Shown here piece after piece: positions 21,126 to 23,432 of a stretch of 64,000 nucleotides of DNA. The position numbers were made by a program, and so were the translations under genes. The notes below the pieces were generated by a model. The model was not told where the DNA came from. It searched no databases and was given only the letters and a program-made list of their open reading frames with translations. Location of the stretch: positions 62,001 through 126,000 of the forward strand of contig DAHVLJ010000010.1 of assembly GCA_027320425.1 (NCBI GenBank). The letters run 5' to 3'. The stretch is from Nitrososphaerota archaeon. Its GTDB lineage: Archaea > Thermoproteota > Nitrososphaeria > Nitrososphaerales > Gagatemarchaeaceae. Numbering within the stretch: the first letter of the stretch is position 1; every line of letters begins with the position of its first letter.

Positions 21126-23432
21126 TTGCCAATAGAAGACCTGATGTGGGTCGAGAAATACAGGCCGGCACGGCTCGACGACGTAGCAGGACAGGAGTCC
21201 ATCAGAAAGAGGCTCGAGGCCCTACTGCAAAAGAAGGAGCAACTCCCTCACCTCCTCTTCGCGGGACCGCCTGGGTCGGGAAAGACGACCACCGCGCTAC
21301 TGGTTGCTAAAGAGATCCTTGGGGATCAGTGGCGGGATTACACCCTGGTTCTGAACGCCTCGGATGAGAGAGGCATCGACGTGGTAAGGGAGAGGATTAA
21401 GACCTTCGCAAGGTACGCCGACAAGAGAGAGGGGGTCCCCTTCAGGCTGGTCATCCTGGACGAGTCTGACGAGATGTGTCTCAACCCAGACACGAAGATA
21501 CTCGTCGGGACGCTCGACGACCTCCGAGAGGCATCTCTTCGTGAGCTGTTGGAGAGTAAAGGCAGGAAGAGGTTCAGGCTTCCTTCTTTCGGAGAGAAAG
21601 GGCTCAGGCTTGAGGACGACTGGGGAAGAATAGTGCCTTCTGGGCGCGCAGAACTCTACAAAGTAACCTTCGACGACGGAAGGACCGTGGAAGCGTCATC
21701 TGAGCACCCTTTCTTCCAAGTCCAGGGCAGGGTGGTCAAGACCATAAGAACAAAGGAGTTGTCCAAAGGCTCCACGGTGGCAGAATTTTCCGATAGGATT
21801 TTGAGATGCTATGGATGCTCGACGCCATTCTACAGGGCAAACCCATGGGAGGGCTACGAGCACCACTTCTGTTCCACGAGTTGCAGAAACGAATATTTCG
21901 GAACGCTTTCAACTCAAAGGCCCCCCGAGGAGAGAACCCGAATCCGCGCGCTGGCGGCAAGGGGCATGAAAGAAAAGGGGGTCTACGAGTCTCCGGACTA
22001 TCGCCGAAAAAGGTCTGAAACCGCACACAGGCTCATCCGAGAAGGCAGGATACCAGACCCTCGTACCTGGAAGAAGTTCGCGAAGGGTCAAGGCGCATGG
22101 ATGGGCAAGAAGCTCCCGCTCGAGCACAGGAAGTCCATCTCGGACGGTGACAGGAGATACTTCGCAGAGCATCCAGAGGTCAAGGAAGAAATCTCTCGAC
22201 ATGTCAGGACCGCCCTGCTTGACCCAACAGGCCCGTATCAGCGGCTGGTTCGGTCAGGATTCTTCAAGGAAGCCAGTAAGCGTGCAAGCGCTGCATCACT
22301 GGCATCTTGGAGCAAGAAGGGCTTCAGGAGCAAGACTGAGGAAAAGATGGCGGCTCTGCTAGATTCGTGGGGACTCGAATACGCCCGGGAACGGGTTATC
22401 CTGCCGGCCCCTAGTGGGGAGAAGTACCCGCTCGCCGTCGACTTCATGGTAGGCAATGTTGCAATCTTCGTTAACGGTTGTTGGTGGCACGTCTGCAATA
22501 GATGCGGGGTTGAACCCAGATATGAAAAGCAGAAGCGAAACATGGTCAAAGACGAGAGGCATTACAGGGAACTCGAGCGGCTCGGTTACCGCGTCGTCGT
22601 GGTTTGGGAGCACGAGTTGAATGATCCGTTAATCGTGTCGAAAGACGTCGTCCCAAGAATCTTCCACATGGTGGGAGTCTCGGGAGGGCATCCTCCGAAG
22701 GTCAGACATGCGAGGGTAGCGTCGATCGAGAAGATAGGGATGTCCGACGTGCTTAACGTAAACGTAGACGGGAACAGGAACTTCATTTTGGCAAATGGCG
22801 TACTCACCCATAACACCAGTGACGGCCAGACGGCCCTTCGAAGGATAATGGAGGAGAACTCCAAGCACACGAGGTTCATCCTGGTCTGCAACTACTCTTC
22901 CGGGATCATCGAGCCGCTCCAGAGCAGGTGCGCCATATTCAGGTTCCAGAGGCTGGACGAGGCGTCGGTAACCCAGCACCTGGAGGAGATCGCCAAGAAG
23001 GAGAAGCTCAAGCATTCGGGGGACGCCGTGTTCGGGGAGATCTACGACGCTACCCAGGGGGACCTTAGGCAGGCGATCAACCTCCTCCAGGCGGCATCGG
23101 CCACGGGGGAGGTCACGATAGATGCGGTGAAGTCGGTCTCGGGAGCGGCGGCGAAAGCGAGGGTCTTCGAAATAGTCAAAGCGGCGCTGGAAGGGGACTT
23201 CGAGGCCGCAAGGACGAAGATGATCGAGCTGACGAGGGTCTACGGCATCCCTGAGAGGGACTTTCTCAAGTACGCTAACGAGTCGCTGGGGTCGCTGAAG
23301 GTCCCTGACATGGCGAAGGCGATCTCCATCCTCGCCGAATACGACTTCCGCCTTGTCCAGGGCGCGCAACCTGAGCTCCAGCTGACGGCGATGCTCGCCC
23401 AGCTTTCCTCTCTCAAAGGCGGCAGGGACTAG
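21126..23432 (+). CDS. rfcS: Replication factor C small subunit with an intein
   Basis: 768 residues as translated; 322 after removal of a 446-residue intein, the normal length for RfcS. WVEKYRPARLDD opening, Walker A GPPGSGKT at 47-54, Walker B LVILDESDEM at 108-117 where the intein inserts, then TSDGQTALRRIMEE (564 on) and the SRC motif (LQSRCAIF) with arginine finger. It forms the RFC complex with RfcL and loads PCNA. The start is a TTG at 21126 or the ATG at 21144. HisS follows after 2 bp, so they form an operon. Confidence 0.95.
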   Translation: MPIEDLMWVEKYRPARLDDVAGQESIRKRLEALLQKKEQLPHLLFAGPPGSGKTTTALLVAKEILGDQWRDYTLVLNASDERGIDVVRERIKTFARYADKREGVPFRLVILDESDEMCLNPDTKILVGTLDDLREASLRELLESKGRKRFRLPSFGEKGLRLEDDWGRIVPSGRAELYKVTFDDGRTVEASSEHPFFQVQGRVVKTIRTKELSKGSTVAEFSDRILRCYGCSTPFYRANPWEGYEHHFCSTSCRNEYFGTLSTQRPPEERTRIRALAARGMKEKGVYESPDYRRKRSETAHRLIREGRIPDPRTWKKFAKGQGAWMGKKLPLEHRKSISDGDRRYFAEHPEVKEEISRHVRTALLDPTGPYQRLVRSGFFKEASKRASAASLASWSKKGFRSKTEEKMAALLDSWGLEYARERVILPAPSGEKYPLAVDFMVGNVAIFVNGCWWHVCNRCGVEPRYEKQKRNMVKDERHYRELERLGYRVVVVWEHELNDPLIVSKDVVPRIFHMVGVSGGHPPKVRHARVASIEKIGMSDVLNVNVDGNRNFILANGVLTHNTSDGQTALRRIMEENSKHTRFILVCNYSSGIIEPLQSRCAIFRFQRLDEASVTQHLEEIAKKEKLKHSGDAVFGEIYDATQGDLRQAINLLQAASATGEVTIDAVKSVSGAAAKARVFEIVKAALEGDFEAARTKMIELTRVYGIPERDFLKYANESLGSLKVPDMAKAISILAEYDFRLVQGAQPELQLTAMLAQLSSLKGGRD
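21477..22814 (+). mobile_element. Intein in RfcS with Vsr-like endonuclease, NUMOD3 and zinc-finger segments
   Basis: Precursor residues 118-563 (446). Splicing ends: Cys118 (CLNPDTKILVG), block B SSEHPFF at 191-197, and VDGNRNFILANGVLTHN ending at Asn563, next host residue Thr564. Between them there is no LAGLIDADG. Instead: a CxxC...CxxxC zinc site (Cys228, 231, 249, 253), a NUMOD3-like repeat (GKKLPLEHRKSISDGD, 327-342), and a domain like very-short-patch repair (Vsr) endonucleases: Glu about 405-406, AVDFMV with Asp439, FVNGCWWH with His455, KDERH, then VVVWEHEL (491-498). Confidence 0.9.

Follow-up and report, generated by a model that had tools for sequence, protein, structure and literature searches.

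An intein in an archaeal rfcS gene with a predicted Vsr-type homing endonuclease

An uninterrupted intein inside rfcS

The window, the stretch of 64,000 nucleotides that was analyzed, contains the gene rfcS, encoding the small subunit of replication factor C, as an open reading frame of 768 amino acids with a TTG start codon at 21126–23432 on the plus strand. The NCBIfam model NF001679 (PRK00440) covers the RfcS sequence in two pieces, which join at profile position 115/116. Between them lies an intein, inserted a few residues past the Walker B motif (LVILDESDEM^TSDGQTALRR). The parts of the gene are as follows.

21126..21476, plus strand: N-extein of rfcS, with the P-loop and Walker B, ending in LDESDEM (NF001679 positions 4–115)
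21477..22814, plus strand: whole intein, 446 aa, from Cys1 to His445-Asn446, followed by Thr (+1) (PF14890, TIGR01445, TIGR01443, AlphaFold model, Foldseek)
21477..21788, plus strand: N-terminal splicing half, with block A (CLNPDT) and block B (ASSEHPFF, S74-x-x-H77) (TIGR01445)
22677..22814, plus strand: C-terminal splicing half, with blocks F and G (ANGVLTHN) (TIGR01443)
22815..23432, plus strand: C-extein of rfcS, beginning with TSDGQTALRR (NF001679 positions 116–317)

The original prediction, made from the sequence alone, placed intact splicing ends at Cys118, Asn563 and Thr564 of the open reading frame. These coordinates are exact, with Cys118 at 21477, Asn563 at 22812–22814 and Thr564 next to it, and all of its residue numbers and motifs proved correct. 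The Pfam model Intein_splicing (PF14890) matches the intein above its cut-off (E=1.9e-10), and both the N-terminal and the C-terminal NCBIfam intein models match the insert (TIGR01445, E=6.6e-6, and TIGR01443). The insert combines the features of a contiguous class-1 intein: Cys1, a block B of the form [T/S]xxH, a His-Asn end, Thr at +1, and an in-frame position within a conserved gene. A split intein of the fractured-gene type was ruled out, as this intein and the five relatives described below each lie in one open reading frame without an internal stop.

The input for an AlphaFold2 model comprised the protein from the window, a single archaeal relative and sequences of viral origin. The mean pLDDT of the model is 73. 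Values mostly exceed 90 in the splicing domain and 85–90 in the splicing parts and the Vsr core, whereas residues ~121–282, in the middle of the intein, are poorly modeled, with low pLDDT. Foldseek searches revealed that the splicing parts of the model adopt a predicted Hint fold resembling many solved inteins, including 1dq3, 2cw7 and 1mi8, and that the nuclease part separately matches Vsr and I-Bth0305I. The structure prediction proposed as a check of the original reading thus agrees with it in both parts.

The insert between the splicing halves

The original prediction described the region between the splicing halves as a Vsr-like endonuclease with a zinc finger and NUMOD3, in the place of LAGLIDADG. 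The following elements were located, with residue numbers counted from Cys1 of the intein.

21807..21884, plus strand: FCS/MYM-type zinc finger, C111-x2-C114-x17-C132-x3-C136 (zf-FCS PF06467, E=6e-5, above cut-off)
22098..22157, plus strand: NUMOD3-like segment, W-x-GKKL-xx-EH-xxxIS-x-G, a probable DNA-contact module (hhalign to NUMOD3 repeats)
22323..22676, plus strand: Vsr-type endonuclease domain, residues 283–400 (TIGR00632, phrog_13076, 1vsr profile, Foldseek 1cw0/1vsr/3r3p)
22338..22340, plus strand: E288, predicted active-site Glu (invariant in the six inteins and in alignment A5 of inteins and Vsr domains)
22440..22442, plus strand: D322, predicted catalytic metal-binding Asp (invariant in the six; pairs with the PDF Asp of E. 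coli Vsr in the alignment)
22479..22613, plus strand: C335, C340, C343 and H379, predicted zinc ligands of the Vsr domain (invariant in the six)
22488..22490, plus strand: H338 of GCWWH, predicted catalytic His (invariant in the six; pairs with the GCFWH His of E. coli Vsr in the alignment)
22551..22553, plus strand: D359, the fourth residue of the E-D-x-H-D set (invariant in the six; pairs with the VERD Asp of E. coli Vsr in the alignment)

The NCBIfam vsr model (TIGR00632) matches residues 285–380 with E=5.4e-10 and 39.6 bits, below the cut-off of 97.85 for true Vsr proteins, and the Pfam Vsr model (PF03852) gives 14.9 bits, below its cut-off of 27. The nuclease part also matches the phage endonuclease family phrog_13076 (1.5e-11). 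In the PDB, E. coli Vsr is found with E=1.4e-5 by the single sequence and with 2.4e-9 (1vsr) by a profile of six intein sequences, which also picks up the structure of I-Bth0305I (3r3p, E=2e-4). With the predicted model as query, Foldseek retrieved the E. coli Vsr structures 1cw0 and 1vsr, together with I-Bth0305I (3r3p_B, TM 0.76 over the target).

The motifs on which the original prediction relied are AVDFMV (residues 320–325), FVNGCWWH (331–338) and WEHEL (377–381). Its expectation that the catalytic positions would line up with Vsr was borne out, as E288, D322, H338 and D359 fall on the Glu, Asp, His and Asp of the E. coli enzyme. We take these four residues to be those denoted by the letters of the EDxHD motif, and the predicted zinc ligands C335, C340, C343 and H379 correspond in position to the structural zinc site in the crystal structure of Vsr. 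Models of LAGLIDADG or HNH nucleases were absent from the intein among the Pfam and NCBIfam matches up to E=5, while the Vsr match is present, in agreement with the claim of a Vsr-like endonuclease instead of LAGLIDADG.

The two putative DNA-contact modules fared differently. The CxxC/CxxxC zinc finger is supported by the match to PF06467 and by the invariance of C111, C114, C132 and C136 in the six inteins. As for NUMOD3, the resemblance of the motif GKKLPLEHRKSIS stands, as does a short profile–profile match of 92% to the NUMOD3 repeats found in free-standing nucleases of archaea (hhalign, 91.8%, aligned over just 18 columns), but the NUMOD3 Pfam model PF07460 has no match at the intein, with E values up to 10, in the six intein-bearing genomes. 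We therefore speak of a NUMOD3-like segment, of which residues 210–224 are GKKLPLEHRKSISDG.

Relatives and empty alleles

The search for other RfcS inteins with the same insert, also proposed with the original prediction, yielded five further full-length inteins, 47–53% identical to that of the window and all at the identical rfcS position. They are in frame and carry the same modules. One host, G011, belongs to the family of the window's archaeon; two, G103 (L046, JASHOD010000103.1) and G108, represent another family of the same order; and the remaining two, G427 and G400, belong to the same phylum beyond the order, so that the hosts overall span several classes. C1, S74, H77, H445 and N446 of the splicing domain are invariant in the six-intein alignment, as are the cysteines of the zinc finger and the active-site and zinc-ligand residues of the Vsr domain, and WEHEL is intact throughout. 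The Vsr part is about as well conserved as the N-terminal splicing part (mean identity 50% vs 52%). This conservation in five other inteins, the matches to PF14890 and PF06467 above their cut-offs, and the matches to TIGR00632 and to Vsr in the PDB argue that the architecture is not a product of chance. Taken together, the sequence profiles, the predicted fold and the active-site set kept in six inteins uphold the central claim of a Vsr-type nuclease in a contiguous archaeal intein. In the metagenome-assembled genome G011, two contigs, C127 (L079) and C134 (L024), each carry an intein end, with slightly different RfcS C-exteins, which suggests a strain mixture at the rfcS locus.

Most members of the window's family have an uninterrupted rfcS. 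RfcS scored above the model cut-off in 36 of the 46 family genomes, and the intein is found in only three of the 46, two of them near-identical organisms; genomes G000 and G026 (99.94% over 11.3 kb) were counted as one case because they are nearly the same genome. Full-length inteins occur in 5 of 400 genomes of the sampled order and 3 of 398 of the sampled phylum, the latter count including the window's genome. For the class of G400 the figure is 1 of 257, and for the family of G103 it is 2 of 9. The RfcS tree places the window's protein within a group of empty ones, the nearest of which (L055) is 85% identical. The identity between inteins hardly follows the distance between hosts: it is 56% for G103 and G108, whose exteins are 74% identical, and 49% for G000 and G400, with exteins at 45%. 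The GC3 of the intein is 0.65, compared with 0.74 and 0.85 in the two exteins. The sporadic presence, the identity pattern and the GC3 fit a gain by transfer or homing.

These observations bear on the view that the intein is ancestral in the rfcS lineage, was inherited vertically with many independent precise losses, and is now immobile. The intein tree is broadly compatible with that view: its conflict with the host grouping is not significant (AU p=0.23 with f1 held together), and f9 and the pair G427/G400 group by host. But the window's copy sits deep within empty alleles, so that many precise deletions would be needed, and the identity pattern and the GC3 difference from the exteins also speak against it. 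We regard purely vertical descent as unlikely. Since the six-intein tree shows no significant conflict with the hosts, the lineage may also be old, with losses and now and then a gain. That distant archaea carry relatives at this very position suggests a mobile element that uses its Vsr nuclease for self-copying, and from the identical insertion points, set against the many empty alleles, we infer that it homes into the site just after Walker B.

Viral, plasmid and neighboring genomes

Viral and plasmid sequences were also searched. The 18 splicing-domain matches on viral contigs, judged via representatives, were rejected as HNH-type inteins of phage portal-like genes rather than Vsr inteins, and one viral-contig match, L019, is a free-standing NUMOD3-type nuclease. 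A scan of the viral contigs with a three-intein alignment returned no relative, tblastn against 50,697 phage records gave no match to the intein, and the plasmid search found only ordinary Vsr. The top viral fold match, SP15_022 of Bacillus phage SP-15, was likewise set aside as an HNH-type intein in a terminase-like gene. L019 and a second viral-contig protein, L117, are phage NUMOD3 nucleases whose Vsr-like domain has GSFWH or GEYPH and lacks the zinc cysteines that the archaeal intein type carries.

Several free-standing nucleases of the window's archaeal family are chromosomal. In L027 (G010), L029 (G003), L040 (G011) and L043 (G035), a Vsr domain is combined with NUMOD3 motifs or with several zinc fingers; the Vsr part of L043, a protein of 524 aa, follows three CxxC-type fingers, and L040 shares its genome with an rfcS Vsr intein. 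Stand-alone Vsr-type genes of ~150–200 aa (L025, L026, L028, L030–L035, L041, L042 and L044) are common in the archaeal family.

Other inteins were seen in the same and neighboring genomes. A second intein (591 aa) accompanies the Vsr intein in the rfcS of G427 (L096), where it interrupts the P-loop (GPPGTGK^C). It contains LAGLIDADG-like repeats, so this gene holds two inteins with unrelated nucleases. In L077 (G013) and L078 (G017), of the same family, the rfcS intein occupies a third site, before SDERG; around the intein of L078 the frame is disturbed, with the N-extein in another frame and a short NSDERGIDTVRE repeat. Large inteins also lie at the GHVDHGK site of an aIF2 gamma-like translation GTPase in close relatives (L037 in G027, L038 in G021 and L039 in G039).

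Proposed activity and origin

Our analyses make it very probable that the archaeal rfcS contains a contiguous class-1 homing intein with an in-frame endonuclease of the Vsr/EDxHD group. Judging from the intact motifs and the predicted fold, the two splicing halves would fold as a Hint domain, and the intein would be excised from the precursor by Cys1/Asn446/Thr+1 chemistry, restoring RfcS. Recognition of a long DNA site across the empty rfcS junction is probably the task of the zinc finger and the linker region, with the excised intein or the precursor as the putative DNA-binding form. The Vsr domain of the intein would cut the junction with E288, D322, H338 and D359, either by a double-strand break or by a nick of the kind that Vsr makes at mismatches, and may do so as a dimer, like the related I-Bth0305I. 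Repair templated by the occupied allele would then copy the intein into the empty rfcS. In favor of this reading, empty rfcS alleles keep 64–78 of the 90 bases around the junction.

Nucleases have decayed in many inteins, and the insert might accordingly be an inactive, Vsr-like relic within an intein that still splices, kept because splicing is harmless or regulates RfcS. The variation of the presumed target flanks between species at the DNA level would suit such a relic. The state of the nuclease argues otherwise: each of the six inteins retains the full active-site set of four, the zinc ligands and WEHEL, and the nuclease part is no less conserved than the splicing part. A relic is quite improbable on these grounds.

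The phylogeny of Vsr domains bears on the source of the nuclease. The six inteins group together (98/100) on a long stem with unstarred neighbors, a placement compatible with a source among either repair Vsr or homing nucleases; nearest to them, on an unstarred branch, lies archaeal repair-type Vsr. Together with the zinc-ligand positions, kept as in repair Vsr, this placement could be taken to mean that the module still serves host mismatch repair and is merely housed in an intein, but like homing nucleases it is joined with a zinc finger and a NUMOD3-like segment, it occupies the usual nuclease position of inteins, and is absent from nearly all close relatives; a continuing role in host repair is very hard to credit. 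That a hidden LAGLIDADG or HNH domain does the cutting, the Vsr resemblance being coincidental, has a next to negligible probability, as the weak match to phrog_1271, a phage family named "HNH endonuclease" (E=8e-4), covers only residues 107–146, which are the zinc finger, whereas Pfam and NCBIfam searches up to E=5 return no such domain and both sequence and fold back Vsr. Returning to a Vsr-type homing nuclease, we tentatively suggest, with more doubt than conviction, that it was recruited inside the archaea from a zinc-ligand repair-type Vsr rather than from the phage EDxHD group. It might then represent a second, independent conversion of Vsr to homing, and the resident homing engine of an rfcS-specific intein lineage across the archaeal phylum.

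The nucleases described from inteins are mostly LAGLIDADG and sometimes HNH enzymes, and the EDxHD/Vsr homing group is known from introns of phages, from free-standing genes and from genes next to split inteins. To our knowledge, the group has been tied to inteins only through such separate genes, and a single-chain Vsr intein would therefore show the fused state that the fractured genes imply. The intein toolbox would gain a nuclease type that combines a zinc finger with a compact catalytic domain and is archaeal rather than phage. Homing is directly testable here, because close relatives carry the empty site.

Comparison with known systems

Reviews and surveys of inteins name LAGLIDADG as the commonest nuclease and also HNH, GIY-YIG and His-Cys, but not Vsr (PMC7765530, PMC5784728, PMC5050341). 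Our literature search, which covered sources other than the founding 2009 and 2011 papers and the intein databases, found no published single-chain intein with a Vsr/EDxHD nuclease, and the newness of the present one is provisional to that extent. A DUF559/EDxHD gene of Thermosynechococcus is listed among cyanobacterial intein-containing genes (PMC9403480). It too places EDxHD in an intein context, but it is cyanobacterial, and the paper does not state that the nuclease is the intein's own domain.

Within rfcS, the archaeal LAGLIDADG inteins (at the P-loop in G427, before DERG in G013 and G017) share the gene and the kind of splicing domain with the Vsr intein, but differ from it in the insertion point and have an unrelated nuclease; three NCBIfam models of intein-bearing RfcS also have an intein at the P-loop. 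The free-standing nucleases L027, L029 and L040 of the same archaeal family combine NUMOD3 motifs with a Vsr domain, but they lie outside any intein and occupy a separate place in the Vsr-domain tree.

In the fractured-gene systems, the nuclease is reportedly a free-standing gene between two intein halves, mainly in phages. These systems also unite a Vsr-related nuclease with an intein, whereas in rfcS the halves and the nuclease form one uninterrupted polypeptide. The occurrence of Vsr-related nuclease genes beside split inteins in fractured genes is given here as PMC12350094 cites it from Dassa et al. 2009.

The rfcS nuclease resembles E. coli Vsr (1cw0/1vsr) in its predicted fold, the aligned Glu, Asp, His and Asp, the GC[FW]WH motif and the equivalent zinc-ligand positions. 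It differs in scoring below the curated Vsr cut-offs, in being embedded in an intein, and in its expected target, a long site and not a T:G mismatch. I-Bth0305I (Taylor et al. 2011, as described in PMC3943268) is an EDxHD homing endonuclease from a group I intron of Bacillus thuringiensis phage 0305phi8-36, and according to the same source it dimerizes on a long target. The two have in common a Vsr-like catalytic fold, predicted here for the intein, a presumed Glu-Asp-His-Asp site, and the joining of the nuclease to DNA-contact modules. While I-Bth0305I is an intron-encoded phage protein, the rfcS nuclease lies in frame inside a contiguous intein of an archaeal chromosome, and the separate FCS-type zinc finger and the Vsr-like pattern of zinc ligands belong to the intein.
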